Assembly: GCF_012910715.1 (NCBI RefSeq) | Contig: NZ_JABBHF010000015.1 | Coordinates: forward strand, 1 to 64,000 | DNA from: Flavivirga algicola | GTDB lineage: Bacteria > Bacteroidota > Bacteroidia > Flavobacteriales > Flavobacteriaceae | DNA: 64,000 bases | Direction: 5' to 3' | Part shown: in pieces, positions 7,125 to 26,319 of the stretch | Position numbering within the stretch: the first letter of the stretch is position 1 | Layout of the letters: every line of letters starts with the position of its first letter | Program-made: the position numbers and the translations under genes | The notes under the pieces: generated by a model | Databases searched by the model: none | Told to the model about the DNA's origin: nothing | Seen by the model: the letters and a program-made list of their open reading frames with translations, nothing else

Positions 7125-7194
7125 TTACTTTATATTTTTAGTATTGTTTTTCTTGATTATTTTTGAGGTTATTGTATCTATCTGAATTTAGTAT

Positions 7195-7225
7195 GAAAGG
7201 GTACTCTCTTTTAGGGTACCCTTTC
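7195..7225. terminator. Bidirectional terminator hairpin between convergent genes
   Basis: GAAAGGGTAC at 7195-7204 pairs perfectly with GTACCCTTTC at 7216-7225 around an 11-base loop. It lies between the stop of the thioredoxin gene and the stop of the convergent DUF6520 gene, the expected place for a shared terminator. Confidence 0.7.
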
Positions 7226-7244
7226 TAAATCATCTTATAAAAGA

Positions 7245-7529: not shown

Positions 7530-7565
7530 AATATAGATATTTAAAAATTAATGACCTACTCTTTT

Positions 7566-9208: not shown

Positions 9209-9236
9209 GTTATAATGCCTTGATTTATTAACAATA

Positions 9237-9291
9237 CAAAGGTGCGAGATAAAATTTATTTTAAATGGATAAATAATTGTCTTAGAGGGAT
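9237..9291 (-). promoter_or_regulatory. Direct-repeat promoter element E1 (drives the MauE-like operon)
   Basis: On the minus strand this reads ATCC-N17-ATCC-N26-TTTG: GGAT at 9288-9291 and 9267-9270, CAAA at 9237-9240 on the + strand. The TTTG is the end of a -7-like box (CACCTTTG, second base A as in TAnnTTTG). Transcription would start near 9230, about 25 bases before the MauE-like start at 9208. The ATCC-to-ATCC period of 21 bp places both half-sites on one face of the helix. Eight related elements occur between 15.4 and 23.8 kb. Confidence 0.65.
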
Positions 9292-9301
9292 TTTAGTGAA
9301 A

Positions 9302-9371
9302 CTCAATTTTGAGAAGCCTGCAAGGCGTACTCAAAATTGTAAGTTGAACTAATCCCGCTTTTGGGCGGGAT
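9302..9371. repeat. Two adjacent palindromes (REP-like)
   Basis: CAATTTTGAG at 9304-9313 pairs with CTCAAAATTG at 9330-9339, and a second hairpin ATCCCGC/GCGGGAT spans 9352-9371. The first is related to the palindrome at 429-475. They lie just behind element E1 and separate the MauE operon from the tandem repeat array. Confidence 0.55.
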
Positions 9372-9446
9372 CTCAGAGTTTAACTAATACTGAACTTGTT
9401 TCGGTATCTAATGTAGTGGAGTTAAAACGTGGTCGTTGATATCTTT

Positions 9447-10610
9447 ATGATGTCCGTTCATTTTTTTCTTGATAAAAAAACGAACCAAAAAAATCAAGTC
9501 AGTCAAAGGAAATTGCTGCGCACCATTCGCTTAAAAAGCTACATGCTTCAAGCTGCGCTTGGCAGTTTCGCTTTCCGCTCTTTATTTCTGAGGTCTGACA
9601 TAGTTCCTATTCAACATTATATAATTGTTTAGAGTATTTAGCCTCCAAGTTTATTTAGAATGAAGACTATTAATTAACTGTCATACCGAAACGTGGACGT
9701 TGAGCGTAGTCGAAACGAGGTATGGTCGTGATATCACAACATCATTTTATTTTTATGATGTCCGTTCATTTTTTTCTTGATAAAAAAACGAACCAAAAAA
9801 TCAAGTCAGCCAAGGGAAATTGCTGCGCACCATTCGCTTTAAAAGCTGCATGCTTCAAGCTGCGCTTGGCAGTTACGCTTTTCGCTCATTATTTCTGGGG
9901 TCTGACATAGTTCCTATTCAACATTATATAATTGTTTAGAGTATTTAGCCTCCAAGTTTATTTGGAATGAAGACTATTAATTAACTGTCATACCGAAACG
10001 TGGACGTTGAGCGTAGTCGAAACGGGGTATGGTCGTGATACCACAACATCATTTTATTTTTATGATATCTGTTCATTTTTTTCTTGATAGAAAAACGAAC
10101 CAAAAAAATCAAGTCGGCCAAAGGAAATTGCAGCGCACCATTCGCTTAAAAAGCTGCATGCTTCAAGCTGCGCTTGGCAGTTCCGCTTTTCGCTCATTAT
10201 TTCTGAGGTCTGACAGAGTTCCTATTCAGCATTATATAATTGTTTAGAATATTTAGTTTCCAAATTTATTTAGAATAAAGACTATTAATTAACTGTCATA
10301 CCGAAATGCGGTCGTTGAGCGAAGTCGAAATGTGGGTGTTGAGCGTAGTCGAAACACAGTATGGTCATGACATCTCATCTTCATTTTATTTTTATGATAT
10401 CCGTTCATTTTTTTCTTGATAAAAAAACGAACCAAAAAATCAAGTCAGCCAAAGGAAATTGCTGAGCACCATTCGCTCTAAAAGCTGCATGCTTCAAGCT
10501 GCGCTTGGCAGTTCCGCTTTCCGCTCTTTATTTCTGAGGTCTGACAAAGGTTCTATTCAGCATTGTATAATTGTTTTAGAATATTTAGTCTCCAAATTTG
10601 GTTAGTGCTG
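9447..10610. repeat. Four-copy tandem repeat, unit about 308 bp
   Basis: Copies begin at 9447, 9755, 10062 and 10394, each opening with ATGATRTCYGTTCATTTTTT. Steps are 308, 307 and 332 bp; the third step is longer because of an extra copy of a GTCGTTGAGCG-type segment near 10310-10340. Each unit holds a T-run/A-run hairpin with CTTGAT...ATCAAG arms, a GC-richer stretch with AAGCTGCATGCTTCAAGCTGCG, and except in the last copy a REP-like tail (CATACC...GGTATG arms around TTGAGCGTAGTCGAAA). Copies are roughly 90 percent alike by eye. Short open frames inside the units are translations of the repeat and are not called as genes. Similar T-run/A-run elements are, as I recall, dispersed in Flavobacteriaceae genomes. 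Confidence 0.9.
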
Positions 10611-11538
10611 GATTTATTGAAAAAATGAAAATTGTTGATTAGCTGTTATATTGAACAGAGTGAGATATCATAAACGATGCTTTTCTTTATAATTTATGCA
10701 AATAAACAGTGACACATTTAAACAAGTTTAAATAATTGAAATGTTTATTTGTTTGAAAATGAGTGTTTTGAATATTTTTGTAAAAATACACCCACCCGCT
10801 TTTGTGTTTTTGTTGTATTGATTTTAGATAGAACGCGTCTTTTCATTTTATTAAAGTAAAAACGATGTTCCAATTTAAATAGGTTCTATTTATTTCCCTT
10901 AGCGTTGCTAAAGTATCAAGTGAAAAAGATAAATTTAGAGACCTACACATAGGTAAGTAGGATTGTTTTGAATGATAAAAAGGCAGATTTCATGGCTATG
11001 ATGTCTGTATAAACCGTGACAACCAAATAAAGCCTCTCTCAAAAAATTAGCGGCTTGGCTAATTAGAAATAAAATGCTTAAAAGGAATGGGAATGAATAA
11101 TCTGTGTTTTGCCCATAAACAAGTTATAACAGTAAAAAAAATAACTAAAATACGTATGGAATAAAGAGCTTTTAAACGAAAAGTGTCCTGATGTTAAGCT
11201 TTGGTTTTATTAAAATTATAAGTCTTATGCATTTAACCACGGGGCACAGTCGGATGTTTCAAAAATACCTTATTATAAATTAGGACATATAATAAAGCAT
11301 GATTCGAATAAAGACTTTTAACGTCATTTATTGAATATCTAACCATCAATATTAGGACGAAAATCTCGTTTTGTCAATATACATAAGAAACTAAGAGATT
11401 TTTCTTTTTAGGGGGAGTAAAGTAATAAATCGTTTTGAATACGCTTCATGGCGGATTCTTAAAAACAATGTGTTGCAAAAAAAGGTAGGTGCATAGTTTT
11501 TGCATTTATGCAGGTAACTAGTTAGAGCCACTTCTAAA
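10611..11538. other. Long intergenic region upstream of susC copy 2
   Basis: No gene could be supported in about 930 bases. Only very short open frames occur. A stem of AAAATCTC (11360-11367) with GAGATTTT (11395-11402), followed by a T-rich stretch, could end transcription from the left. The length is unusual for this otherwise compact genome and fits decay of former genes between the repeat array and the second SusC gene. Confidence 0.5.
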
Positions 11539-14500
11539 ATGAATAAATTAAAAGACTTAATGAACCTGATGCTCCATAAATCTGAGGAAATTAAATTTGC
11601 GGGTGTATTTTGCTATATAAAAAAAGGACTAGAAAGGCTTATAATAGAATCCTTTATACGGTTGTTCTGTATGATACTATTCTGCTTTATATCCACGTAT
11701 ATTGTATCTCAAAATAAAACCTTCTTTATAAAAGAGATGCCAGAACTTAAAATTTCTGGTACGGTCAAAGATCAATCAGGGCTTCCCATCCCCCATGCAA
11801 CTGTCTTAATAAAGGACACGGGTAGCGGTAAACCCACTAATTTAGATGGTCAGTATACTATCAAGGTATCCGAGACTTCTCAGGTATTGGTCTTTTCGTC
11901 CATAGGTTTTGAAACACAAGAAATAATGGTTGGTAATCAAACGACTATTAATATTGTTCTTAAAGAAGGCGTTGACCAATTGGACGAAATAACCATTGAA
12001 GCTGGATATTATAAAACGTCTCAAAGGTTGGCTACTGGTAGCATTAGTAAGCTAGAGGCAAAAACCATAGAAAAACAGACCGTTAATAACCCTTTGGCTG
12101 CTATCCAAGGGCATCTGCCTGGTGTGAATATCACCCAAAATACGGGAGTTCCTGGTAGTGGGTATCAGATCCGAATTCGCGGACAAAACTTTATAGGCCC
12201 AGGTGGGCCTTTAGATGAGGTTAACGATCCGTTATATATAATAGATGGTGTGCCTTACAATTCTGGGTCGTTGGAATTGAGTTCTTTAACAGGGAATATT
12301 ATTCCTGGTGGCAAGGTGAGTCCGTTAAACACGATAAATCCAGCAGACATAAAAAGTATTGAAGTACTGAAGGATGCCGATGCCACTGCTATCTATGGGG
12401 CACGTGGCGCTAATGGTGTGATACTGATTACGACCAAGAAAGACAGGATTGGAAAAACACAGGTTAAACTCCATGTGAGCAGTACATTAAGCGAAGTGCC
12501 CCGTTTTGTAGATGTATTAAATGCAAAACAGTATCTAGAAATGCGTAAGGAAGCTATTGAAAATGAAGGTTTCACCCTTCAAACGATACCAGCTTCATCA
12601 CGATCGGCCTTTCCAGATTTATATGTATGGGATCAGGAACGCAATACAGATTGGCAAGAAGTACTTATTGGAGGGACTGCTTATAGGCAGCGTGCCCAAC
12701 TATCCTTTTCGGGAAGCGATGCCCAAACACAGTTTTTGTTAAGTGGTGGTTATGTAACAGAGACTACCGTGTTTATAGGAGATTCAAAATATGATAAAGC
12801 GTCCTTACTTGTTAATGTAAATCATCAATCGGAAGACCGTCGCTTTAAACTTCGTTTTTCTGGAAATTATGGATCGGATACTAATAATCTACCGCCTCAG
12901 GATTTTACAAAGAGTGCATTGATTTTACCGCCAAATGCTCCAGCACTTTACAATGCTACTGGTAATTTAAATTGGGAAAATTCTACTTGGAGAAATCCTT
13001 TGTCTATGTTGGAGCAGGATTATCAGGCAAGAACACATAACCTTATTGCGAATACGGTATGGTCTTACCATCCAATTCCATCGCTGGAGTTTAAAACCAG
13101 TTTGGGTTATACCGATTACCGCTTGCAGTCTTATGCAGCATTTCCACATACTAGTTTTGACCCTAATAGCGCTTCGGGGCAGGATAGCAGTCGGTCTAGT
13201 ATTAGTACAAATAGTAGTAAACGTGAGTCTTGGATTGTAGAGCCTCAAATTAATTGGAACTATCATTTGGGAAATATCAACTTAAAATTACTTCTGGGTA
13301 CTACTTTTCAACAAGAGAAAGATCAGCAGTTGGGGCTGTCTGCATCTAATTTTCCAAGCAATGCCTTATTGCAAAATCTAGCCGCAGCCAAAGATAAAAG
13401 GGTTATTCTTGATACGGATACCGAGTATAAATATCAGGCATTTTTTGGCAGGATTAATTTTAATTGGAAAGATAGACTTATCCTAAACATAACAGGGCGT
13501 CGAGATGGTTCCTCCAGATTTGGACCTGGTAAGCAATTCGGCAAATTTGGAGCTATTGGGACGGCATGGCTGTTTTCTGAGGAACGCTTCTTTGAGAATC
13601 ATGCGGTTTTGAGTTTTGGGAAATTGCGAGCCAGTTATGGTATAACAGGAAGTGACAAGCCGCCAGACTATGCTTTTTTAGATACTTATGAGGTTTCGGG
13701 TAATTACAACGGATCTGGCTTGGCACCTACCCGCTTGTTTAACCCTAATCGTGCCTGGGAAGAAAATAAAAAATTGGAAACAGCTTTAGAGTTAGGTTTT
13801 TTTAAGGACCGTGTCTTCCTGTCAGCGGTCTGGTATCGCAACCGTTCTTCCAATCAATTGCTTTCCGTTCCTTTGCCTGGTACTACAGGGTTTTCCAGTA
13901 TCAATGCAAATTTAGATGCCATCATAGAAAATAAAGGAGTTGAGATTGATCTACGTACGGTAAATATTCAAAACGATTCTTTTAAATGGCGTACAACCTT
14001 TAATATTTCGACAAATAGAAATAAACTGGTAGCATTCCCAGAACTAGAGAAATCTACCTTGGCCAGTGAGTATTTAGTAGAGAAGCCTTTGGGAATTTGG
14101 CAATTATATCATGTTCTGGGGGTTGATCCTGAAACGGGTGTGTGGCAGTTTGAAGATTATAATGATGATGGGGTTATAAATAAAGATGATCGTCAATGGC
14201 TTGAGGATCTAACACCAAAATATTTTGGGGGCATGGGGCATACCATAACCTATAAAAATATGCAATTGGATATGTTTTTTCAATTTGTAAAACAAAAAGG
14301 AAGAAGTTTTATTCAATCTGGTGTTTTAAACCTTGGAGGGATGGCTCAAAATATGCCTGTATCCATATGGGATCGCTGGCAGCAAGTAGGTGATGAAAAT
14401 TCGATCCAACGTTTTTTTCTGCCTATTAACAATACCGCTGCAATAGCATCAAATACGTATAGACATAGTAATGCATCTGTAACGGATGCTTCCTTTATTA

Positions 14501-14691
14501 GGTTACGAAATGCTTCACTAAGTTATACGATGCCTAAAGCCATAACAAAACATATGGACATAAATATCTATTTACAGGGGCAGAACTTATTTATTATTAC
14601 AAGATACGATGGCGCAGATCCAGAAGTACAGAGTGCATCCGTTTTACCACCATTACGACAATTTACTTTAGGCTTCAATGTCACATTTTGA
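11539..14691 (+). CDS. SusC/RagA-family TonB-linked outer membrane protein, no STN domain and no SusD partner (copy 2)
   Basis: A 1050-residue paralogue of the SusC protein at 869-4258, with long near-identical stretches. Order: hydrophobic export segment about residues 35-58, carboxypeptidase D-regulatory-like domain from about 72 to 145, TonB-box-like LDEITI, plug with SIEVLKDADATAIYGARGAN, and a barrel ending in LGFNVTF. The STN domain of copy 1 is absent, and no susD follows: 91 bases after the stop lies a palindrome and then the convergent DUF6520 gene. The exact start is uncertain, since ATG codons also occur a few residues into the frame. The barrel looks intact, so the protein is probably functional, perhaps using a SusD encoded elsewhere. 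Confidence 0.93.
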   Translation: MNKLKDLMNLMLHKSEEIKFAGVFCYIKKGLERLIIESFIRLFCMILFCFISTYIVSQNKTFFIKEMPELKISGTVKDQSGLPIPHATVLIKDTGSGKPTNLDGQYTIKVSETSQVLVFSSIGFETQEIMVGNQTTINIVLKEGVDQLDEITIEAGYYKTSQRLATGSISKLEAKTIEKQTVNNPLAAIQGHLPGVNITQNTGVPGSGYQIRIRGQNFIGPGGPLDEVNDPLYIIDGVPYNSGSLELSSLTGNIIPGGKVSPLNTINPADIKSIEVLKDADATAIYGARGANGVILITTKKDRIGKTQVKLHVSSTLSEVPRFVDVLNAKQYLEMRKEAIENEGFTLQTIPASSRSAFPDLYVWDQERNTDWQEVLIGGTAYRQRAQLSFSGSDAQTQFLLSGGYVTETTVFIGDSKYDKASLLVNVNHQSEDRRFKLRFSGNYGSDTNNLPPQDFTKSALILPPNAPALYNATGNLNWENSTWRNPLSMLEQDYQARTHNLIANTVWSYHPIPSLEFKTSLGYTDYRLQSYAAFPHTSFDPNSASGQDSSRSSISTNSSKRESWIVEPQINWNYHLGNINLKLLLGTTFQQEKDQQLGLSASNFPSNALLQNLAAAKDKRVILDTDTEYKYQAFFGRINFNWKDRLILNITGRRDGSSRFGPGKQFGKFGAIGTAWLFSEERFFENHAVLSFGKLRASYGITGSDKPPDYAFLDTYEVSGNYNGSGLAPTRLFNPNRAWEENKKLETALELGFFKDRVFLSAVWYRNRSSNQLLSVPLPGTTGFSSINANLDAIIENKGVEIDLRTVNIQNDSFKWRTTFNISTNRNKLVAFPELEKSTLASEYLVEKPLGIWQLYHVLGVDPETGVWQFEDYNDDGVINKDDRQWLEDLTPKYFGGMGHTITYKNMQLDMFFQFVKQKGRSFIQSGVLNLGGMAQNMPVSIWDRWQQVGDENSIQRFFLPINNTAAIASNTYRHSNASVTDASFIRLRNASLSYTMPKAITKHMDINIYLQGQNLFIITRYDGADPEVQSASVLPPLRQFTLGFNVTF

Positions 14692-14782
14692 CTTTGAATT
14701 ATTTTGGTTTTATAGATGCCGGGTAGTTATTTTGTCAATCAAAGCTTAATGAGAATAATCCTTTCAAACGGCTTAACTAAAG

Positions 14783-14837
14783 GAGCGTATTCGAAAGTTT
14801 CTTTATGTGTTGGAATGATGCGCTTTCGAATACGCTC
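14783..14837. terminator. Perfect 15-bp palindrome between convergent genes
   Basis: GAGCGTATTCGAAAG at 14783-14797 pairs perfectly with CTTTCGAATACGCTC at 14823-14837, around a 25-base loop. It lies between the convergent SusC copy 2 and DUF6520 copy 2, where a bidirectional terminator is expected. The long loop and lack of a T-tract also fit a REP-type palindrome. Confidence 0.5.
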
Positions 14838-14908
14838 AAGCAGATATACTTTCTTAACTTAAAGATATTGAAATAAAATAGACAGCTTATTTACGAATCT
14901 TTTCAAAA

Positions 14909-15208
14909 CTAATCCAAGCCTTCATACAGAAGCACGTTACATGGCGATATACTGTTAATTCTTTGATATACTTGATGAACATTAAACCCTACTATAATGG
15001 TACATACAGGATTGTATGAAGATGTACAATCACAGTTAATGGGTGATGCAACTGCGCAGCTAAGCTCATCGGGGTTTTGGTACCATCCAGAAGTAACTAC
15101 AATAGCATCGGCCATATTATTACCGTTAGGAGTAAAAGCTAATGAAGCAGTAACAGCTAGTGTCAATGCTAAAGCAGGTAAAACGATTTTAAAAATTTTT
15201 GTTTTCAT
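14909..15208 (-). CDS. DUF6520 family small secreted peptide (copy 2)
   Basis: A 99-residue paralogue of the peptide at 7245-7529. The signal peptide is nearly the same (KIVLPALALTLAVTASLAF), and the mature part keeps an NPVC motif but has five cysteines (LSCAV, NCDC, NPVC, PCNV) instead of two. Only the export signal and the NPVC region are conserved between the copies, so the mature peptide has diverged fast. Upstream it retains the 54-bp relic of the unrecognised 392-aa gene and, further out, direct-repeat element E2. No MauE-like gene remains in this copy of the locus. Confidence 0.7.
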   Translation of the reverse strand: MKTKIFKIVLPALALTLAVTASLAFTPNGNNMADAIVVTSGWYQNPDELSCAVASPINCDCTSSYNPVCTIIVGFNVHQVYQRINSISPCNVLLYEGLD

Positions 15209-15226
15209 AATAAGGTATTTTAAAAG

Positions 15227-15280
15227 TTAATGACCTACTCTCTTTTACAGGTTTTCGGTCTTAGCCCTGACTATAGTATT
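15227..15280 (-). pseudogene. 54-bp relic of the 3' end of the unrecognised 392-aa gene
   Basis: These 54 bases match 7548-7601 with three differences. In copy 1 the segment encodes the C-terminus (AVRAKTENL and stop) of the 392-aa protein plus the spacer to the DUF6520 gene. Here the same residues (IVRAKTENL and stop) are still legible, but the similarity ends abruptly beyond 15281 and no longer frame continues. This shows that the second locus once held the same gene order. A conserved leader element of DUF6520 genes is the alternative reading. Confidence 0.6.
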
Positions 15281-15493
15281 TTTTAGGTACTTGGTCTTTT
15301 GATTGTAGTAGTAGGTAGAAAGCATAAAAGAGTTTAGTATGTACCTTGGTTTTGTCTTGTTTTTATATAGTTGCTGTCTAAAAGTACCCTAAGCCTTAGG
15401 TTTTGCCTTCAAAAATAGGCGTAATAATATCTTTAAAAATTAATAATTAAATGGTAATTAATTGTGTGTCAGCAGTATATGTGCTAAGTTAGA

Positions 15494-15548
15494 ATTTATT
15501 AAGAATAAAAACTTACTCTAAAAGGATAATAATTTGCCTGAGAGGGAT
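15494..15548 (-). promoter_or_regulatory. Direct-repeat element E2 (degenerate)
   Basis: GGAT at 15524-15527 and 15545-15548 gives ATCC-N17-ATCC on the minus strand, as in the other elements. No TTTG lies at the expected place (15494-15497), so the promoter may be dead. It lies upstream of the gene relic and DUF6520 copy 2, the position equivalent to E1 in copy 1. Confidence 0.5.
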
Positions 15549-15551
15549 TAG

Positions 15552-15740
15552 TTAGATGTATTCAATTTTGAAGTGTTTTTTATATAAATAAAATGTAAGA
15601 GATAGATTGTTGATTGAACAGGTCGCCTGACTACCAGCAACCACCTCACCGAGGTCTTCTATAGATAATACATTGTGGCATTCTATTTTTGATATCTCAA
15701 TATATGCTCTTTTATTCTTTTTAAAGTGAAATAGTTTTGG
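15552..15740 (-). pseudogene. Start-less reading-frame fragment ending IEDLGEVVAGSQATC...
   Basis: The minus strand holds an open frame of about 60 codons that ends at TAA 15552-15554 and includes EISKIECHN, LSIEDLGEVVAG and SQATCSINN. No ATG, GTG or TTG in a sensible position precedes it, and upstream it runs into the terminator at 15761-15831, so it is most likely the 3' relic of a gene. The amphipathic IEDLGEVVAG stretch before a cysteine-containing tail recalls double-glycine-type leader peptides, but this is only a resemblance. Confidence 0.3.
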
Positions 15741-15760
15741 TTCTACTACAAAACAAAAAG

Positions 15761-15831
15761 AAAAAACCAGAGTTTACTCTATTTTTCTAAAAGGATTCTA
15801 AAAATATAAATAGATTTTACTCTGGTTTTTT
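15761..15831 (-). terminator. Terminator hairpin after the orphan 206-aa gene
   Basis: AAAAAACCAGAGT at 15761-15773 pairs perfectly with ACTCTGGTTTTTT at 15819-15831. Inner CTATTT/AAATAG arms extend the structure. On the minus strand the stem is followed by T-rich sequence. It starts 47 bases after the stop of the gene at 15878-16498. Confidence 0.65.
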
Positions 15832-15877
15832 GGGGTCTGTTTGATCCGTAACGTTGCATGCAAATGACTTCATCTCT

Positions 15878-16498
15878 CTATAAAGTAATAAGAGGCAGGT
15901 TATCTAATTTGGACAAAGACTCGCTCGATTTTATTTGTTTAATAAGTTCAGATCTATCAATACCAAAGGCACTGGACAAGTAATGAAGTTGTGTTTTGTC
16001 TCCATTGGTATCATTATGAGTTGTGAAAAAGCAATGCCAGTGTTCACCACAATCGATAATTCTAGCAACCGATTTGAAATCTTTTTTAGAAAATTCAGGG
16101 ATATATTGACTTAGTGTATACCCAAATTTATGATAAGCCGTAAAAATAAAAGAGGTTAGGGTTTCCAAAGGGAGCAAGCATCCGTCAAGTAATTTTTCTT
16201 GATCTTTTTTCTTATTGGTTTTTAAAAGCTTTATTAAATTATTGGGGATTTTTATTTTTTGAAAGTCACTTTTTAGTTTTAGCCAATGTATATGGGCGCT
16301 TTTAAATATTTCGCTGCTCGTAGTAGTAAGTTCCTTTTCTCCTGTAATTTCTTCTTTAGGAACACCATTTAAAATCATTTGTTTTACAATAATGTTACTA
16401 CCATATTGTTTGATAGGATTTTCCTTTTCAAATTCACTGTCATCAAATGTAATCAGTTGTTTGTTGGTTTTCTTATGTGTAAATATACGGTGTAACAT
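15878..16498 (-). CDS. Hypothetical protein (206 aa) under direct-repeat promoter E3
   Basis: Not recognised. The protein has no signal peptide or membrane helix and appears to be a soluble cytoplasmic protein rich in Lys, Ser and Thr. Notable stretches are MLHRIFTHKKTNKQL at the start, CGEHWHCFFTTHND near residue 155 (a His/Cys-rich patch that could bind metal) and SAFGIDRSELIKQIKS near the end. It is a single gene bounded by its own terminator (15761-15831) and promoter element E3. The predicted leader is about 25 nt, the same as for the MauE-like gene under E1. The sharing of the promoter type suggests co-regulation with that operon. Confidence 0.65.
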   Translation of the reverse strand: MLHRIFTHKKTNKQLITFDDSEFEKENPIKQYGSNIIVKQMILNGVPKEEITGEKELTTTSSEIFKSAHIHWLKLKSDFQKIKIPNNLIKLLKTNKKKDQEKLLDGCLLPLETLTSFIFTAYHKFGYTLSQYIPEFSKKDFKSVARIIDCGEHWHCFFTTHNDTNGDKTQLHYLSSAFGIDRSELIKQIKSSESLSKLDNLPLITL

Positions 16499-16529
16499 TG
16501 TTTTTATTTAGATTGAAGGCGACTATATA

Positions 16530-16584
16530 CAAAAATCGAAAATTAAACTTACTTTAAAAGGATAATAAATTGCCTGAGAAGGAT
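16530..16584 (-). promoter_or_regulatory. Direct-repeat promoter element E3
   Basis: On the minus strand ATCC-N17-ATCC-N26-TTTG: GGAT at 16581-16584 and 16560-16563, CAAA at 16530-16533. The -7-like octamer is GATTTTTG. Predicted transcription start near 16524, 26 bases before the start of the 206-aa gene. Confidence 0.65.
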
Positions 16585-16762
16585 TCGTTAACCTATGTTT
16601 GAGGTGTGGTAGGAAAACTTGATTTCATTCTTTTTCATTAGAATCTTAATTAATATTGTTAAAAACTAGGTAGCTTAACTTGAAAAGTAATTTATTAGGA
16701 CAATCACAAATTATAACTACCCAGCTTAGGGGGGATGATTATAAGTAAATTTAAATCGATAA

Positions 16763-16817
16763 CAAATGTAGATGAAGGAACTTAGTTGATAAGGAATAAA
16801 AATTGCCTGAGAGGGAT
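16763..16817 (-). promoter_or_regulatory. Direct-repeat promoter element E4
   Basis: The distal half-site is GGAT at 16814-16817; the proximal one is degenerate (GGAA at 16793-16796); CAAA lies at 16763-16766, with exactly the spacing of E1 and E3. The -7-like octamer on the minus strand is TACATTTG, a perfect TAnnTTTG. It lies 233 bp upstream of E3. The only frame between them is a 16-codon ORF on the minus strand (16588-16638), which is not convincing as a gene. Confidence 0.55.
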
Positions 16818-16918
16818 TAATATTTTTAAGAGCTGAAAAAATATGATTCGTTTGTCGTATAAATTTTGTTTGATTTTTTAACTTAAATAATCCAAAATTG
16901 TAGAAAGGGAGGCTATTC

Positions 16919-17893
16919 ATAAGATTCTGTATTGGAACAGCTGAGAAAAAGAAGTTCCTATGTCACGCTGAGCTTGTGGAAGCGCAAGTTTATAAAGGGT
17001 TGTTGCACTTGTAGGTATTGTTTCGTGTGTTATGCTTCGACAAGCTCAGCAAGACAAGGTAACTCTAAATAGTCTTTTTTGTTTAGTTGGTCATTAGTAA
17101 CTATTTTGGCTCCTTGGCTTAGTGAAAGAATGGCCTACTCATAAGATTTCTTATTGAAAAGAATTGAGACAAAAAGAAGTTGTAGTGTCACGCTGAGCTT
17201 GTCGAAGCGTAAATTTGAAGTTAAAATGAAATTTTATTACGTATACATATTACTTTGCTCTGATAAAACCTATTATACAGGAATGACCAACGATTTAGAA
17301 AGAAGAATTAATCAGCATAAATCTGGTTATAGAAAAGATGGTTATACATTTTTTGAGAAGACCTATAGAACTTAAATGGTATTTACAGTGTACAAGTCCA
17401 TCAGAAGCTATAAAAATTGAAAAGCAAATTAAAGGATGGTCGCGACGAAAAAAAGAAGCTTTAATTAATGATAATTGGGAAGATTTAATCGAGTTTTCTA
17501 AAAATTATACAGAATATAAACATCCTGATAACCGATAATGGCCTTCTTGTTCTTCGACAAGCTCAGCAAGACAAGGTGACATTAAATAGTCTTTTTTGTT
17601 TAGTTGGCATTAACAATTATTTTGTCAACCTAGTATCGTGGAAGCGTTGCCTATTATATAAGGTTTCTTATTGAAAGAGTTAAGGTAAAAAGAAGTTCCT
17701 ATGTCATACTATGCTTCGACAAGCTCAGCAAGACAGGGTAGCTTTATATAGTCTTTTATGCTTAGTTGGTAATTAACAATTATTTTGTCAACCTAGTATC
17801 GTGGAAGCGTTGCCTATTTTTAAGATTTCTTCTTGAAAAGAACTAAGACAAAACAAAATTCCTATGTCACGCTGAGCTTGTCGAAGCTCAAAT
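16919..17893. repeat. REP palindrome cluster (GCTGAGCTTGTCGAAGC type)
   Basis: Six copies of a palindromic REP core occur. GTCACGCTGAGCTTGT-type copies lie at 16962-16988, 17186-17210 and 17865-17887. Inverted GCTTCGACAAGCTCAGC-type copies lie at 17031-17056, 17549-17580 and 17702-17738. They sit in a larger repeated module that also contains AGTCTTTTTTGTTTAGTTGG, a GTGGAAGCGTTGCC-type segment, AAGATTTCTTATTGAAA and AAGAAGTTCCTATGTCA. The frameshifted GIY-YIG gene lies between an inverted pair of these REPs. Outside that gene no coding sequence was seen in 16499-18609. Confidence 0.85.
17226..17538 (+). pseudogene. GIY-YIG nuclease (UPF0213-like), frameshifted
   Basis: The start MKFYYVYILLCSDKTYYTG carries the family motif YVYIL...YYTG. 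The frame then breaks after HKSGYRKDGYT. A second frame continues the same protein (LRRPIELKWY, SEAIKIEKQIKGWSRRKKEALI) to a stop at 17538. One extra T in the T6 run at 17349-17354 explains the break: with five T the gene reads as one normal-length GIY-YIG protein of about 103 residues. A homopolymer sequencing error or real slippage are both possible. The gene is flanked by inverted REP copies at 17186-17210 and 17549-17580. GIY-YIG proteins of this size are single-domain endonucleases of unknown cellular role. Confidence 0.85.
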
Positions 17894-17935
17894 TTAATAA
17901 CATACTTTTTTGAAAGAAAAACCTTGCTAAGATTA

Positions 17936-17996
17936 ATTTCAGCTACGCTCAATCTCCTAAATCCCTATAAAAAAGAAGATCGTGCGCAACCGAAAT
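17936..17996 (-). repeat. Hairpin H1 (CTACGCTCAATC/GCGCAACCG type)
   Basis: First of four related hairpins, each lying directly downstream (minus strand) of a direct-repeat promoter element, here E5. Arms are TCAGCTACGCTCAATC and a diverged CGTGCGCAACCGAA. This copy is the least symmetrical. Confidence 0.55.
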
Positions 17997-18012
17997 TAGA
18001 TATCAGACGACA

Positions 18013-18067
18013 CAAATATCGATGATAAGTTTTAACTAAAAGGGATTAAGACTTGTCTGAAAAGGAT
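18013..18067 (-). promoter_or_regulatory. Direct-repeat promoter element E5
   Basis: GGAT at 18064-18067 and 18043-18046 and CAAA at 18013-18016 give ATCC-N17-ATCC-N26-TTTG on the minus strand. The -7-like octamer is GATATTTG. No protein gene follows; the transcript would run into hairpin H1. Confidence 0.6.
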
Positions 18068-18156
18068 GTCTTTAAAAGTCATTAGGTAATATATGATTGA
18101 GGTTTTGTGTGTTGTTAATGAGGTGTTTAGGGGTGTTGGTGCTAATTATTTTTTTG

Positions 18157-18215
18157 TTTCGGCTACGCTCAATCTGAAGAATCCAATGAACTGGTGATTG
18201 GGCGCAACCGAAGTC
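18157..18215 (-). repeat. Hairpin H2 (second unit of the E5-E7 array)
   Basis: On the minus strand TTCGGTTGCGCCCAATC pairs with GATTGAGCGTAGCCGAA. The 17-bp stem has two G-U wobbles and one C-A mismatch, so it is better paired as minus-strand RNA than as + strand RNA. It starts about 25 bases after the predicted start of transcription from E6. Confidence 0.65.
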
Positions 18216-18241
18216 AAAAAGACAAAAATTACTAACCGCAA

Positions 18242-18296
18242 CAAATATCGATGATAAGATTTAACTTAAAAGGATTAAAACTTGTCCGAAAAGGAT
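18242..18296 (-). promoter_or_regulatory. Direct-repeat promoter element E6
   Basis: GGAT at 18293-18296 and 18272-18275 and CAAA at 18242-18245, with the same exact spacing on the minus strand. The -7-like octamer is GATATTTG. It lies 229 bp from E5. Confidence 0.6.
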
Positions 18297-18384
18297 GTCT
18301 TTTGAATGTTGTTTGCTACTAGGAGTGATATGTTAAATGTCATTGATGGGTTTTTTGTGTTGTAGTGATACTAATTTATTTTTG

Positions 18385-18443
18385 TTTCGGCTACGCTCAA
18401 TCTGAAGAATCCAATTAACTGGTGATTGGGCGCAACCGAAGTC
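18385..18443 (-). repeat. Hairpin H3 (third unit of the E5-E7 array)
   Basis: Nearly identical to H2 over its full length, including the loop apart from one base. It lies downstream of E7 on the minus strand at the same distance as H2 from E6. Confidence 0.65.
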
Positions 18444-18469
18444 AAAAAGACAAAAATTACTAACCGAAA

Positions 18470-18524
18470 CAAAGATCGATGATAGGATTTAATTTAAATG
18501 GATTAAAGCTTATCTGAAAAGGAT
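18470..18524 (-). promoter_or_regulatory. Direct-repeat promoter element E7
   Basis: GGAT at 18521-18524 and 18500-18503 and CAAA at 18470-18473 keep the exact spacing. The -7-like octamer is GATCTTTG. It lies 228 bp from E6 and 86 bases after the 3' end of the outer-membrane gene at 18610-21273. Confidence 0.6.
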
Positions 18525-18609
18525 TTTGCGAAATTACTGCCGGTTTTTAATTGAAAAACATTCCCCTAGTTGCTGGTCAACCTCTATAAACACAAGCATT
18601 TAAATGCCT

Positions 18610-21273
18610 CTAGAAATTGTTAAACTTCCAACTAAAACTTAGCATAAAATATTGCTTAAGAACTTTGCTTTGAGAATCTTGAATGTAGTTTTTCGTGGCA
18701 ATACGCCTAACGTTTGTGTTTTGGTTTAATAAATCGTAAATCTTTAAAGATAAAATACCATGGTCTTTAAACATGGTATAGGCTAAAGTGGTGTTCCAAA
18801 ACCAGACGCTTTTTTGAAATCCCTCAGCGACATTTGGGTTATAATTGAAGCTAATGTCATGCTGCCATTCTAATTTTTTAGGAACGAATGTGGTTATTTG
18901 TAACCCAGCGGAATGATTTATAAACTCTTGGTTATTAAAATCTTCCAGATCGAACGTGGTTTTATTAAATGATAGCCTGTAATTTGGAGCTATTGTCATA
19001 ACGTGATCCCATGCAAAGGTGATACTAGTATGAGGTGTTAAGGTGGTATTGTTTGAAACATACAACACATCATTATTAAAGTTAATCGATTTGTTAATGC
19101 CCGAGGATAGCCCAACACTATATCTAAACGTTTTTAGGGAGTCAATTTTTATCGTTTTATTATAGCTGGCACCAGTGTTTAAACTAAAACCTCCATTTAC
19201 ATTAACATAGCTTGTGTTTCTCACAAAATTATCATCAATAGTTGTTTTAGTTACTACCTGATTGTTGTTTAAATTGGCATAGACATGACCAAAAAAACCA
19301 TGACGTTTTTGAAAATTGAACGTATTAAAACCAAGATAAAAGCTATGCGTATTTGTCGGTTTTAAATTAGGATTTCCTGTTATTGTATTTAAAGGGTTTG
19401 ATATATCTTGAAAAGGCTGTAGTTGTGACAACTGTGGTGGTATGTTATCTAAGCCATAGCTGGCATATAAATACGATTTTGGATTATATTGATAATGAAA
19501 ATTCGATCGCAGCTCTAGAGTTTCAAAATTACGGGCTAAACTTAAATCGGGTCTTAAAAAATCGATGTTTTTTAAGGTTCTTAATACATACCCTATTTGA
19601 GAACTAGCAGACCATTTTTCTTTTTTATAAGTTAGTTTTAAAGCCGGGGTACTTCGCTTATTTGTATACTCAAAATCTGTACTTAGATCTTCATTAAATA
19701 TGGTGAAGCCTTGTGTGTCTGGATCAAAAGCGTAAGAGCTCTTTATATTTTTTTGTTTGTCATATCTATAATTAAACTTAAGATCTAAAAACAGGATCTT
19801 CACAATTAATGGCCATCTAAGAGTAGCGCCTGTATAAATTCCTTTTGACTTTTGGTCACTATCCGTAAATAAGTTTCTGTTAATTTCTTCTGGATTATCT
19901 CCAAAAATACTGGTTTCAGAATTTAGGTAATTATCAGTTTCTGTAGTTTGATATTTATTTGATATATTGAATTTAAAATAAGCCCCATACCTACCAAATC
20001 GTTTTGTAACATCAACATGGTTGTTGAGGTTTTTATTAGTTGTTTCAGAAAATGAAGACAAACTGGATTGGTTTGTCAAGGTGTTATCTTCATTTCGGGA
20101 AGCTTCACTACCTGATGTTTCCATTTTATTTTTAACCATGTTAAATGCTGGGTTAATATTGATTAAAAGCATAGAATCGACTTCGATGTTAAACCCTAAA
20201 TGGATACTGTGGTTTTTCCCTTCATCATGTGACTTTGTATTGGAATTGCTTGTGTATCTCGAATCTGGGAGAATATTGATTTGTTGTGTTGTACGTTCGT
20301 TTTCAGAACGCGTACCAGAGAAAAAATAATTGGCAGAAATATCATGCCTTTTTCTCAATTTATCAACGTAATTGGCACCATAATTTTGAGATGTAGTAAT
20401 CCCTTGCCTGCTTGCAAGACCGTTTCTAAAGTTAAAGCCAGGTACATTTATATTGTTGCCTCCAGCAAGGAGGCTCATGCGTTGATCGTTATTAAAAAGA
20501 TTAAACATACCAACAAATTCATAACGCTTGTTGGTTCCTGTCCCGGCTGCTACCTGTCCAAAAGTACCATCGTTGTTTTCTTCCTTTATAACGAGGTTGA
20601 TCGTTTTTTTTTCTTTGCTACCTTCATCACCAGCAAAAGCTTCTGCCTTTGTTTTTGTATCTGTGATTTGAATGTTATCAATAATTTCTTTACTTAAATG
20701 CCTGGTTGTTATAGTCGGGTCATTACTAAAAAATGGTTTTCCATTTACCAAAATATTATCGACCTCTTTTCCATTGATACTTATCTTGCCTGCATCATTA
20801 ACTTCTACGCCAGGTAATTGTTTTAGTAAATCTTCAACATTGGCATTTTTTTTAGTTTTAAAAGAGTTGGCATTGAATTTTAAAGTGTCTTTTTTTATAA
20901 CGACAGGTGGATTAACCTTTATAAGAACCTCCTTTAAGGCATTAAGGTCTGTTTTTAGATTAATAGTATTTAAATTAATGGTTACTTTGTCTAAATAAAC
21001 AGTTTGAAAGTGGGTTTGATACCCAACGTACGAGATATAGAGGTTTAAATGTTTGTCTGCCGTTTTGCCTTCTAAAGAAAAATACCCATTTTTATCTGAA
21101 ATGGCATAAGTGACCAAAGAACTGTCCTTAGCACGTTCTAAATGAATTGTTGCTGACTCTAGAGCTATTTTATCGGTTTCTGTTATCAAGGCTCCCGAGA
21201 TTTTAAAAGGCTTCGTTTGTGAGAAAGACATCGTTATGCAAAGTATTGTATAGACAAAAAAGCAATGTTTCAC
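18610..21273 (-). CDS. Outer membrane beta-barrel protein of the TonB-dependent receptor type (OMP_b-brl_3-like)
   Basis: An 887-residue exported protein. Residues 1-19 are a signal peptide (MSFSQ end). Residues 22-105 are a carboxypeptidase-regulatory-like domain (SDKNGYFSLEG, YISYVGYQTHFQTV). Residues about 120-235 are a plug-like domain (NANVEDLLKQLPGVEVNDAGKI, ILVNGKPFF). The remainder is a large barrel of the outer membrane protein beta-barrel family ending in aromatic FSWKFNNF. It is not a SusC protein and has no partner lipoprotein beside it. Its role is unknown; relatives are found as stand-alone barrels in Bacteroidota. It is a single gene with element E8 and hairpin H4 365 bases upstream and the E5-E7 array directly beyond its 3' end. 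Confidence 0.88.
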   Translation of the reverse strand: MKHCFFVYTILCITMSFSQTKPFKISGALITETDKIALESATIHLERAKDSSLVTYAISDKNGYFSLEGKTADKHLNLYISYVGYQTHFQTVYLDKVTINLNTINLKTDLNALKEVLIKVNPPVVIKKDTLKFNANSFKTKKNANVEDLLKQLPGVEVNDAGKISINGKEVDNILVNGKPFFSNDPTITTRHLSKEIIDNIQITDTKTKAEAFAGDEGSKEKKTINLVIKEENNDGTFGQVAAGTGTNKRYEFVGMFNLFNNDQRMSLLAGGNNINVPGFNFRNGLASRQGITTSQNYGANYVDKLRKRHDISANYFFSGTRSENERTTQQINILPDSRYTSNSNTKSHDEGKNHSIHLGFNIEVDSMLLININPAFNMVKNKMETSGSEASRNEDNTLTNQSSLSSFSETTNKNLNNHVDVTKRFGRYGAYFKFNISNKYQTTETDNYLNSETSIFGDNPEEINRNLFTDSDQKSKGIYTGATLRWPLIVKILFLDLKFNYRYDKQKNIKSSYAFDPDTQGFTIFNEDLSTDFEYTNKRSTPALKLTYKKEKWSASSQIGYVLRTLKNIDFLRPDLSLARNFETLELRSNFHYQYNPKSYLYASYGLDNIPPQLSQLQPFQDISNPLNTITGNPNLKPTNTHSFYLGFNTFNFQKRHGFFGHVYANLNNNQVVTKTTIDDNFVRNTSYVNVNGGFSLNTGASYNKTIKIDSLKTFRYSVGLSSGINKSINFNNDVLYVSNNTTLTPHTSITFAWDHVMTIAPNYRLSFNKTTFDLEDFNNQEFINHSAGLQITTFVPKKLEWQHDISFNYNPNVAEGFQKSVWFWNTTLAYTMFKDHGILSLKIYDLLNQNTNVRRIATKNYIQDSQSKVLKQYFMLSFSWKFNNF

Positions 21274-21549
21274 GCGTTTAAATTTTAGTTGCCTGTTTAT
21301 AAACTATTCTTAAAAATGGAATCTGTATGTACACGGTATTTTCACTTGGGAGCTTTTTAAACAGTAAAAAATGAACGTCTCGTTTTATAGAGACTTTGAT
21401 GCGTATCCCTGCTTTTTACACATGAACGTTATTTTTAGCCTTGTAATAAGGCTTTTAAAGCGAATGTCTTTTTGTTAATACGCAATAATATACCTGTCAA
21501 TACGTACCAATTGATCTATTGTTGAGTCTTGAAAATTTTGATCCTTTCA
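21274..21549. other. Possible long 5' leader of the outer-membrane barrel gene
   Basis: No gene was seen between the barrel gene start (21273) and hairpin H4. If E8 is the promoter, this stretch is a leader of roughly 350 bases. I saw no known riboswitch pattern in it. Confidence 0.4.
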
Positions 21550-21609
21550 ATTCCAGCTACGCTCAATCCCTAAAATCCCAATAAAGATGATTGGGCGCAA
21601 CCGAATTCG
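21550..21609 (-). repeat. Hairpin H4 downstream of element E8
   Basis: Same family as H1-H3: CAGCTACGCTCAATC pairs with GATTGGGCGCAACCG. It lies between E8 and the outer-membrane barrel gene. Confidence 0.6.
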
Positions 21610-21637
21610 AAAAGACAACTAACTAACAACTATAGAA

Positions 21638-21692
21638 CAAATATCGAGGATAAAACTTAACTTAAATGGATTAAAACTTGTCTGAAAAGGAT
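21638..21692 (-). promoter_or_regulatory. Direct-repeat promoter element E8
   Basis: GGAT at 21689-21692 and 21668-21671 and CAAA at 21638-21641 give ATCC-N17-ATCC-N26-TTTG on the minus strand, with octamer GATATTTG. The next gene on that strand is the barrel protein at 21273. It lies 153 bases beyond the stop of the AraC-type regulator gene. Confidence 0.6.
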
Positions 21693-21844
21693 GTTGTGAT
21701 TAATATAGTGTTCAGTGTTTGGTAGTCGAATGTTTATAGGGAGAATTGGGTATTCTTTATTTAGAACTTCGCATCAGGAATTTGATATTTGAATTTTCAA
21801 ACTGCAAATTAGTACCTAATGCTTAATACTTTTTTCACTTGTAA

Positions 21845-22831
21845 CTAAATATCGGGGTTTTGATTGGATTGTTTTCTTAAATCCCTTGGTGTAAATCCAT
21901 ATTTCTCTTTGAAAGCTTTAGAAAAATGAGGCGCACTTATAAATCCAGTTACATGTGCCACTTCCTTTATGGATGTATCTGTATGTTGAATTAAAACACT
22001 GGCTTTTCTCAATCGTTCGTTTATTAAAAAACGAAATACTGTTTGCCCATACAATTGTTTGAAACCATATTTTAGTTTGTATTCATTAGTTCCAAAAGCA
22101 TGTGCCAACTCAATCAATGGAGCGAGTGGTTTGTCTAAATTATTTATAATGTGATCATGTACTTTTCGGATTTTTCTAATATCGGTAAAACTTAAATTTA
22201 ACTGTTTGCTTTTATTACCATTATAAGAATGCTTTGCTGCTTTATTCTTTCCTGTACTTACAATTTTTCGTAATTCAGCTTCCCTTTCGGTACTATTTTT
22301 AATAATTTCTATAGATGTGACTACGATTCTTTCCGATTGATTCACTCGATCGACAAATTTACTTACTAAACAATTGGATGTTAAAATTAATTGTTGTTTG
22401 GTTTTAAAAGATAGTACGATAAATTCTTCATGAGCATCAAGGTTTGCTTGCACTAATTTAGATTTTAAACCATTCCAAGCTAATTTTGATTCTTGAGTGA
22501 GGAATGTAGAAAAATCTTTTTCTTGCAATTCATTATCATCAAAGAATAACATTTGTTTAATGCGGGAATTAAAGGCTATAATAGTGTCCTTTGTGTCTAG
22601 AACAAAGAACATTTGAACCAGATGTTTGTAGGTTTCATTTAAGTTTGCATAGCCTTGATGGAGAAAAGAAGTTTTTATTTCTTCAAAGGTCATGTTAATC
22701 AGCGCGATGAGGGCTTCGATATCATCATTCAAATCAGACCTTTCAACCTTGTAAGCAAAATTCCCACTGGCAAACTCCATAAGCATAGTATGGATTTGTT
22801 TTATTCTTTGTTTGTTATTGAGTTTCATCAC
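21845..22831 (-). CDS. PAS-domain AraC-family transcriptional regulator
   Basis: A 328-residue cytoplasmic regulator. The N-terminal 60 residues are helical, followed by a PAS-like sensor region (about 65-175: MFFVLDTKDTIIAFN) and a linker. A C-terminal AraC-type double helix-turn-helix occupies about 220-320, with the signatures LAHAFGTNEYKLKYGFKQLYG, IKEVAHVTGFISAPHFSKAFKEKYGFTPRDLR. AraC proteins usually bind direct-repeat half-sites about two helical turns apart and activate. This is the only activator-type gene near the nine direct-repeat elements with 21-bp period, so it is the best candidate for binding them (inference). ATG at 22828 is an equal alternative start. A STAS/SEC14-like gene lies 102 bases upstream on the same strand. 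Confidence 0.88.
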   Translation of the reverse strand: MMKLNNKQRIKQIHTMLMEFASGNFAYKVERSDLNDDIEALIALINMTFEEIKTSFLHQGYANLNETYKHLVQMFFVLDTKDTIIAFNSRIKQMLFFDDNELQEKDFSTFLTQESKLAWNGLKSKLVQANLDAHEEFIVLSFKTKQQLILTSNCLVSKFVDRVNQSERIVVTSIEIIKNSTEREAELRKIVSTGKNKAAKHSYNGNKSKQLNLSFTDIRKIRKVHDHIINNLDKPLAPLIELAHAFGTNEYKLKYGFKQLYGQTVFRFLINERLRKASVLIQHTDTSIKEVAHVTGFISAPHFSKAFKEKYGFTPRDLRKQSNQNPDI

Positions 22832-22933
22832 AGATACATACTAATTTGTAGATTTTTATACTGATTTTAAAACAGGAAAAATAGACGGTTATTGTATTCT
22901 AAAAATAAGGAGGTGCACTAGTCTCATAAATAA

Positions 22934-23317
22934 TTATTTAGAGATGATATAACTGTTTAGAAAATTTAAAGCATCCTCTTCGCTTGTAAATATCTGGGTT
23001 GTGATTGCTGGATTACTGGTTTTAACATAAAAACCTGATATCGTATTGGTCAAAGGGTTATTAACTAACAAAGCAACAGCTTTAATTAAGGCAGAGCCTT
23101 CTATTGCTAAGTAGTTTCTGGCGCTTTTATTGACGCTTTTAACGCCTCTCATATCACAAAAGATTAAAAACTCTTTACCTTGTTGTAATAAAAGCCTATC
23201 TTCAACAACTTGCATGGCTACGGATTGATCTATAGAAATTCCATTTTTGTAAACAAAATAAAGAATGTCTTTTTCAATCCAAAACTTCGCATACTCATTT
23301 TCTATATGATCTATCAA
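22934..23317 (-). CDS. STAS/SEC14-like small soluble protein
   Basis: A 127-residue protein that fits the family of STAS/SEC14-type proteins often found in flavobacteria (DUF7793-like by my recollection). It has alternating beta strands and helices (FWIEKDILYFVYKNGI, FLIFCDMRGVKSVNKSARNYLAIEG) and ends with FTSEEDALNFLNSYI. No signal peptide or membrane helix. The start codon is TTG at 23317. It precedes the AraC-type regulator on the same strand with a 102-base gap, so the two may be co-transcribed. A partner-switching or ligand-sensing role beside the regulator is only a guess. Confidence 0.65.
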   Translation of the reverse strand: MIDHIENEYAKFWIEKDILYFVYKNGISIDQSVAMQVVEDRLLLQQGKEFLIFCDMRGVKSVNKSARNYLAIEGSALIKAVALLVNNPLTNTISGFYVKTSNPAITTQIFTSEEDALNFLNSYIISK

Positions 23318-23681
23318 ACTATTTTAAAATTTTTGGGGTTAAAAGATTTCATGACTTAATTAAATTTAAATACATATTTTTACGATTATTATTTGTATTA
23401 ATTTACCTTAAGAGAGAGAATGTTCTTTTTATTAATGTGATACAAATTAAAACAACATTAACATAGAACTAAACAAATATAAATACAATTATTTTAACTT
23501 AACTGAGGTAAAACCGTACATTTAACTTTTTAGGAATAATTTTAGTGCCAATTGTGTTTTCCTCGTTTATGCCCAACTATAAAGATACTTTTTTTTATTT
23601 TAGGAAGTGTCAATTGTCTGTTTTTAAGTAGTTTAATATTTTTTATATTTATCTTATAACGTCAAAATATATTTTTTTGTT
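23318..23681. other. Intergenic region between divergent STAS-like and PLP-enzyme genes
   Basis: No coding frame was supported. It is very AT-rich with many T-runs. Element E9 lies at its right side. Promoters for both divergent genes must lie in 23318-23852, but no full TTTG-N19-TAnnTTTG match was recognised. Confidence 0.5.
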
Positions 23682-23727
23682 TGTACAAAACTTGTCTTAG
23701 AAGGATAAAAACTTGTCTGTAAGGGAT
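23682..23727. promoter_or_regulatory. Direct-repeat element E9 in the divergent STAS/PLP-enzyme intergenic region
   Basis: AACTTGTCTTAGAAGGAT and AACTTGTCTGTAAGGGAT follow each other with a 21-base period (GGAT at 23703-23706 and 23724-23727), so here the whole half-site is repeated almost exactly. TTTG at the standard N26 distance is missing. The site could control either the minus-strand STAS/AraC genes or the + strand PLP-enzyme gene 125 bases away. Confidence 0.5.
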
Positions 23728-23852
23728 TTTTTATATAATACTTGTAGGGATAGCAAAATAGAGCTATAAATTTTTATAGTTTTATATTCCATGATTTAGC
23801 CAATGGAATATAATAGCCTCCCTAATTGCATTAACCATTAATAAATCTTGAA

Positions 23853-26276: not shown

Positions 26277-26319
26277 CTTGTTATATTAAACGAAAGTCAT
26301 AGATAGGCTAAAAAGAAGT

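Follow-up and report, generated by a model that had tools for sequence, protein, structure and literature searches.

We found that nine direct-repeat elements (E1 to E9) in a 64,000-nucleotide stretch of the Flavivirga algicola genome (contig NZ_JABBHF010000015.1, positions 1 to 64,000; hereafter the window) are very probably tandem operators of a locally encoded PAS/AraC regulator, which would activate weak -7 promoters. The elements lie at 9229-9297 (E1), 15486-15554 (E2), 16522-16590 (E3), 16755-16823 (E4), 18005-18073 (E5), 18234-18302 (E6), 18462-18530 (E7), 21630-21698 (E8), and 23665-23733 (E9). All nine are on the minus strand, as are the genes downstream of them, and each carries two GGAT half-sites 21 bp apart. 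This bears out an original prediction made from the sequence, which had described nine such elements in one orientation and had noted GGAA in one half-site of E4. As it had also stated, CAAA precedes the first GGAT by exactly 30 bp in seven elements (E1, E3, E4, E5, E6, E7, and E8), all of which have A at the second place of the -7-like octamer; for E1, the TTTG is at 9240-9237 and the predicted start near 9232, and for E3 to E8 starts are predicted near 16525, 16758, 18008, 18237, 18465, and 21633, respectively. These seven combine the operator with a weak Bacteroidota -7 box, while E2 and E9, the latter with two near-perfect half-sites, have no TTTG at the canonical place.

The pattern GGAT-N17-GGAT occurred 11 times in the window as compared to 1.45 expected and a maximum of five among 100 shuffles. 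Eight of the 11 matches are family members, and E4, with its GGAA, is the ninth element. A position weight matrix (PWM) built from the nine elements themselves recovered them with scores of 48.6-79 and gave no other window match of 14 or more. Since the matrix was made from them, this recovery is expected, and it is the score gap beneath 48, with no match in it, that carries the information; on both strands of 1 Mb of Markov-simulated sequence, the PWM produced one match at 14-18 and none at 20 or above. We also searched the genome (5,023,467 bases, 5.02 Mb, in 37 contigs) with R1, a 60-column profile whose 26 training elements include seven of the window. Among 28 matches at E ≤ 1, nine sites reached E ≤ 1.1e-7, all in the window, and the remaining 19 spanned E values of 0.015 to 0.78. 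E2 (E = 2e-8) and E9 were outside the training set of R1, and thus their recovery is independent. The claim that no element lies outside 9-24 kb held for both window and genome, as PWM and R1 gave only these nine clear matches; the R1 matches, rather than being random genome-wide, were limited to this locus. The proposed whole-genome scan for ATCC-N17-ATCC-N26-TTTG gave seven exact matches, six inside the zone and one on contig C12; the reversed pattern, used as a control, gave three. Together, the shuffles, the simulated sequence, and the R1 genome search reject a chance origin of the elements. One weak R1 match at 47503-47551 on the minus strand (16.1 bits, genome-wide E = 0.054) is probably due to chance.

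The elements might instead be copies of a mobile or repetitive extragenic palindromic (REP)-like repeat, such as a miniature inverted-repeat transposable element, that happen to be intergenic. E6 and E7 indeed sit in a 146-nt tandem duplication (94% identical), and REP-like repeats lie nearby at 16943-17896. However, the sequence common to the elements is a core of only about 60 bp, except among E5-E8, and the R1 search found no clear distal copy in the own genome outside this locus. The elements also recur before the same genes and keep a fixed distance to a hairpin RNA (RNA A, see below) in 12 genomes. We therefore rejected a dispersed repeat as the origin of the family, an explanation that now seems barely credible.

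Half-site and promoter features were counted over 89 genus elements, taken from 11 sister loci and the window at a PWM score above 25 and leaving out the paralogue loci L073, L074, and L076 and also L134, the main locus of genome G009. The -7 box rule was passed by 70 elements, termed canonical, and failed by 19, 12 of which are of the E9 type. The half-site consensuses of the 70 canonical elements are ATCCtTtTcAGacAAgTtTTa and ATCCnTTtaAatTAAaTttTA, which agree at 13.9 of 21 positions as compared to 6.4 after shifting one against the other by 1-6 bases. With two direct half-sites of about 17-20 bp and a 21-bp period, the elements have the form of an AraC/XylS-type operator, downstream of which the canonical ones carry a -7 box, nAnnTTTG. 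Promoters of the Bacteroidota primary sigma factor are described as -33 TTTG/-7 TAnnTTTG (PMC6847099, PMC7366714), and a study of F. johnsoniae reports T-12, A-11, and TTTG as nearly invariant and -33 as weak (PMC6847099). Here, A-11 (70/70) and TTTG are retained, whereas T-12 is replaced in 58/70 elements (G 45, C 13, T 12); TTG near -33 is found in only 11/70. Counting the last base of TTTG as -5, the half-sites would lie at about -59 to -40 and -38 to -19. As judged by sequence only, this is a class II arrangement, in which a proximal site over -35/-33 accompanies a weak core: half-site 2 covers the -33 place. Neither sigma-70 style promoters (37 promoter-like sites versus a shuffle mean of 42.6) nor simple terminators (3 versus 4.4) were in excess, as expected for this phylum.

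E9 lies between the regulator operon (DUF7793-AraC) and a divergent gene, and its form, with both half-sites but no -7 box at the usual place, was found once per genome in 12/12 genus genomes. The regulator operon is preceded by a consensus -7 box, TATATTTG (23474-23481, minus strand), which contrasts with the boxes of the elements and lies 140-174 nt before DUF7793 in 12/12 genus genomes. Because E9 has no -7 box and in the window ends about 184 nt upstream of TATATTTG, a distal operator is the most plausible reading of it. The originally predicted activator-dependent promoter class, defining a regulon, fits our computational tests, with the correction that E2 and E9 are not canonical promoters and that E9, possibly also E2, is not a promoter of this form. 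A regulator acting mainly as a repressor, or as an activator at E1-E8 and a repressor at E9, would suit both the position of E9 between two divergent units and that of the proximal half-site at -38 to -19, where binding might block polymerase. The regulated -7 boxes, however, depart from the consensus and are seldom accompanied by a -33 box, as would suit promoters in need of help more than of blocking, and we consider a repressing or dual role improbable. The divergent gene (23853-26276, plus strand) encodes an 807-aa fusion of an alpha-oxoamine synthase-like and a GNAT domain and occupies the same place in five other-genus loci; its NCBIfam matches, all under cut-off, include an autoinducer-synthase model.

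The original prediction had left the activator unnamed; it is likely the PAS/AraC gene inside the zone. This gene (21845-22831, minus strand; start codon uncertain) lies among the elements, encodes a 328-aa product, and is preceded by a gene for a DUF7793 protein (22934-23317, minus strand; Pfam PF25056, E = 2.2e-46), which is syntenic in other genera. The product ends in the domain with two helix-turn-helix (HTH) motifs that defines the AraC/XylS family, matching Pfam HTH_18 with 69.2 bits (E = 3.8e-19; cut-off 33.6) and HTH_AraC with 44.5 bits (cut-off 26.6), and its last ~110 residues are akin in sequence to the SoxS, Rob, RamA, and Rns structures. In the N-terminal part, Pfam PAS_9 and HAMP both scored under cut-off. 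An AlphaFold2 model, used solely for topology, was PAS-like at residues ~74-174, at low confidence (mean predicted local distance difference test score of 55.8, eight close sequences), and its best PDB matches were PAS or LOV proteins. We found no histidine kinase or receiver Pfam domains at E ≤ 1, which sets the protein apart from hybrid two-component system (HTCS) regulators. In four sister genomes (L068, L070, L075, and L087), the AraC gene is tandemly duplicated; G007 has a split second copy, and a stop is flagged in one of the copies of G004.

We searched 149 genomes, 12 of them from the genus (both counts include the own genome), scoring for each the best 36 (R1) or at most 14 (regulator) first-pass candidates, with stricter filters above 40 genomes. 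A regulator homologue at E ≤ 1e-20 was present in 19 genomes. R1 matches at E ≤ 1e-4 were found in 14, all of them among these 19, and in none of the 130 genomes without a homologue (Fisher p = 7e-16, not corrected for relatedness). Regulator and elements occurred together in 12/12 genus genomes and, outside the genus, R1 matches were found in two genomes, G028 and G084. Locus L082 gave no operator match at 15 or more. More distant AraC-domain proteins, whose N-terminal part differs, were set aside; the 420 kb of loci around them contained no operator match of 12 or more.

Several observations weigh against the elements being operators of this regulator. Five of the 19 genomes with a homologue had no R1 match at E ≤ 1e-4 (G018, G031, G033, G059, and G125). 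Three of them have weaker operator matches (loci L081, L080, and L077), none was found within the 20 kb examined in G033, and in G125 only a short locus was examined. A paralogue locus of 36% identity in G008 (L076) gave no operator match of 15 or more. Scoring of best candidates can miss weak sites, so that absence in the genome searches is not proof. The canonical set was chosen partly on the TTT of the -7 box, which makes the TTT in its logo circular, while the A-11 and -12 frequencies are free of this circularity. Last, as compared to promoters of AraC or XylS, the proximal half-site is about 13 bp nearer to the start.

Another factor, such as an extracytoplasmic function (ECF) sigma, a LytTR-type protein, or another regulator, with its gene elsewhere in the genome, could also bind the elements, the AraC gene being a neighbor by chance. 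That AraC binds them is itself predicted from sequence; ECF promoters may carry GGAA/GGAT-like boxes, and LytTR sites have a 21-22 bp period. Nevertheless, the operators track the AraC gene across genera, and a half-site length of about 20 bp together with a repeat period of 21 bp fits AraC monomers that each carry two HTH motifs. The retention of the E9 half-sites without a -7 box throughout the genus is operator-like and unlike a sigma promoter. Moreover, predicted motifs of AraC-type HTCS in Bacteroides are reported to average 21 bp (PMC3878776). A different binding factor thus seems quite improbable, and we retain the PAS/AraC protein as the candidate regulator.

HTCS proteins are described as carrying an AraC-type domain (PMC11253607), and their predicted operators in Bacteroides as direct repeats with an average distance of 21 bp (PMC3878776). 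Our system resembles them in the DNA-binding domain, the 21-bp direct repeats, the SusC/SusD-type neighbors, and the phylum (PMC3878776). It differs in its 328-aa one-component regulator with no kinase or receiver domain, in its half-site (not compared motif by motif), and in a regulon with small RNAs and DUF6520/MauE genes. At AraC I1-I2, two direct half-sites likewise serve an activator-dependent promoter. XylS/Pm of Pseudomonas is reported to be an activator-dependent promoter in which the sites of activator and polymerase overlap and both direct half-sites consist of an A and a B box (PMC5481539). As compared to XylS/Pm and AraC I1-I2, the half-site sequence differs here and the core promoter is of the Bacteroidota type. 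The proximal half-site also reaches about -19, nearer to the start than in either. Because AraC-type tandem direct repeats are already known from XylS and HTCS, the promoter architecture is of a known kind.

The genes behind the elements all lie on the minus strand. E1 and E3 lie shortly before the starts of the MauE-like and 206-aa genes, as had been predicted, with predicted leaders of 24 and 27 nt. Behind E1 follow a MauE-like membrane protein (8741-9208; Pfam MauE, E = 2.5e-30), a 392-aa protein (p392; 7566-8744) with no family at E ≤ 0.001 and homologues in synteny, and a DUF6520 small protein (7245-7529). E2 lies about 280 bp upstream of a second DUF6520 gene (14909-15208); both DUF6520 genes carry the leader motif described below. 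A Csc3 match to a DUF6520 protein was far under cut-off and was disregarded. The 206-aa protein behind E3 (p206; 15878-16498) had no Pfam, NCBIfam, or PDB match, and its homologues also lie behind an element. E4-E7 precede predicted RNAs rather than protein genes; E8 precedes a predicted hairpin RNA and, at about 365 nt, the gene of an 887-aa outer-membrane beta-barrel protein (18610-21273; Pfam OMP_b-brl_3, E = 6.6e-20).

Across the 11 sister genomes, most elements are placed upstream of orthologous genes or of conserved RNAs, recurring before the MauE and p206 orthologues. The zone was found in all 12 genus genomes searched and is hence genus-conserved rather than accessory, as it had been called. 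Five other-genus loci keep the order DUF7793-AraC-MauE, to which most add p392 or DUF6520 and SusC/SusD. L078, L079, L080, and L081 have operator matches (scores 17.4-33.4) in the AraC-MauE interval or ahead of DUF7793, and L077 has a weak one. In sister genomes, we examined 19 distal elements among the matches listed, with genes named by sequence resemblance and not by family search. DUF6520 genes, with leaders of 342-371 nt, follow seven of them, MauE three (one frame disturbed), a p392 fragment one, SusC-like genes two, and a likely SusC remnant one; the other five are ambiguous. At L124 and L128, the element lies 28 nt (TTTG to ATG) before a SusC-like receptor gene, and in these genomes the regulon seems to reach transport genes. 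At three other distal elements (L120, L122, and L123), a similar leader of about 200 nt, as seen by eye, precedes unlike genes and is possibly a third RNA.

Behind E5, E6, E7, and E8 lies a hairpin of 70-73 nt, TTCGGTTGCGC...GAGCGTAGC(C/T)GAA, which we termed RNA A (17930-18002, 18150-18220, 18378-18448, and 21544-21613, respectively, minus strand). Its covariance model R2, built from 36 sequences, found 45 strong copies (E ≤ 1e-14) in 12/12 genus genomes, three to five in each and all at this locus, and none at E ≤ 1e-6 among the best first-look candidates of each of 137 non-genus genomes. For all 45 strong copies, the distance from the TTTG position of an element to the start of the hairpin is 10-32 nt, TTCG replacing TTTG in one of these elements. 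As 36 of the 45 copies built R2, the position and not the match is the test. The 15-pair stem showed a marked strand asymmetry, with G-U in 118 of 540 cells on the transcribed strand as compared to 5 on the opposite one, and R2 scored 78.5-87.9 bits on the transcribed strand and 27-34.8 on the other.

Compensatory double changes in this stem were found in 2/540 cells (1/15 pairs), no better than in shuffles, there is no T run behind the hairpin, and weaker look-alikes (E 1.6e-7 to 0.006) occur off-locus in G000 (one), G004, G005, and mostly G011. These findings count against a functional RNA and would suit DNA palindromes or transcription stops. An extended 20-pair stem had 13 double-change cells, above all 500 shuffles; the version slid by one column had 17. 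Only 85.3% of its cells are paired, since the lower-stem pairs differ among subclasses. Covariation was thus too weak to be relied on as proof of the hairpin, and the case for RNA A relies on strand asymmetry and element linkage. Both speak against a mere palindrome or stop, as the G-U pairs and model scores favor one strand and every strong copy lies behind an element; we regard that explanation as unlikely, though less so than the other alternatives considered here. The own genome contained one weak RNA A match off-locus (E = 1.4e-5) and no strong dispersed copies.

A second family, RNA B, lies behind E4 (16649-16737, minus strand) and consists of an 11-bp stem with a T run behind it, CTGGGTAGT...CTACCCAGTTTTTAA, much like a short RNA that has an intrinsic terminator at its end. 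Model R3, built from 10 sequences, found one copy in 11/12 genus genomes (none in G005), 11/11 behind an element at gaps of about 22-36 nt as read from coordinates; ten of these 11 copies were used to build R3. Double changes occurred in 1/11 stem pairs, which 93/500 shuffles equalled, and with covariation this weak the case for RNA B relies on its linkage to the elements. Several similar RNAs under one regulator recall, in their arrangement, the multicopy sibling Qrr small RNAs of Vibrio. GibS of B. thetaiotaomicron is described as an intergenic small RNA in the same phylum (PMC7366714).

Both DUF6520 genes of the window carry CAGG-N5-GACCGAAAACCTG-N12-GGTC shortly before the start codon (7545-7590 and 15225-15270, minus strand), a motif that can pair as an H-type pseudoknot. 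With up to three mismatches, its core was found only at these two places in the own genome. A pattern search of the window and the loci examined, which caught one of the two window genes, gave 27 DUF6520-like starts, of which 23 have the motif 22-31 nt before the ATG, three with a changed GACC. Because the leader sequence hardly varies, the pairing is not proven. The leader has the same core, CCGAAAA..CCU..AAAAGAGUAGG, as the Rfam DUF805b RNA (RF02914), for which the two leaders scored 17.8 and 19.7 bits, short of the gathering score of 35.6; the other leaders scanned gave no DUF805b match at E ≤ 1.

An Rfam scan of 7000-26500 returned three matches at E ≤ 1, none reaching its gathering score. 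One of them, AaHKsRNA41 (16961-17056), matches both strands, sits on REP-like repeats, and was rejected. Such repeats (TGTCACGCTGAGCTTGTCGAAGC) surround a frame-broken gene (17154-17538; GIY-YIG by eye) within 16943-17900, and L134 has an unbroken relative of this gene. Upstream of E1, about four imperfect tandem copies of an intergenic repeat of about 300 bp (9429-10600; by eye) carry TTTCGACTACGCTCAACG-type palindromes.

From these data, we infer how binding, activation, transcription, and signal might be connected. Two regulator monomers, or one dimer, would bind the pair of direct half-sites (roughly ATCCyTTtcAGayAAGTTTT) from one face of the DNA, at a distance of two helical turns. The proximal half-site would overlie the -33 region together with some of the spacer, so that the bound regulator could replace the missing -33 contact and recruit RNA polymerase with the Bacteroidota primary sigma to a -7 box that would be insufficient by itself, mostly having G or C in place of T-12. 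The signal would presumably be read by the PAS-like domain. Predicted targets are MauE/p392/DUF6520, p206, and probably the 887-aa outer-membrane protein, together with the four copies of RNA A and the single copy of RNA B in this window, which suggests a mixed protein/RNA regulon. The regulator operon would be transcribed from a consensus -7 promoter of its own, for which E9 would serve as a distal operator, perhaps in feedback. A wider model, to which we give slightly less than an even chance, is that this genus-wide one-component switch drives the RNA A siblings and the terminator-ended RNA B from the operators that also serve its membrane and secreted-protein genes, so that the RNAs tune the same output post-transcriptionally. 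They would act for instance on DUF6520 messages with pseudoknot leaders, and the proximal half-site over the -33/-7 spacer would represent AraC-type activation fitted to the Bacteroidota sigma factor.

In the open-licence literature, we found nothing on DUF6520, DUF805b, or DUF805 with structured RNAs in Bacteroidetes, and no title on regulation among the Flavivirga matches listed; on AraC regulators with PAS domains, outer-membrane genes, and small RNAs in Bacteroidetes, the only match was a paper on iron. As far as searched, the regulon, its linkage with two RNA families, and its tie to MauE/DUF6520 are new. The system offers a compact, testable activator-promoter pair for a phylum whose promoters depart from the textbook model. 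Through a single readable 21-bp repeat code, weak -7 boxes seem to be under the control of a local regulator operon whose own -7 box is consensus; two conserved small-RNA families are tied to this code as well. The placement of MauE, DUF6520, an outer-membrane barrel, and two family-less proteins in one predicted regulon would provide a first handle on their function.

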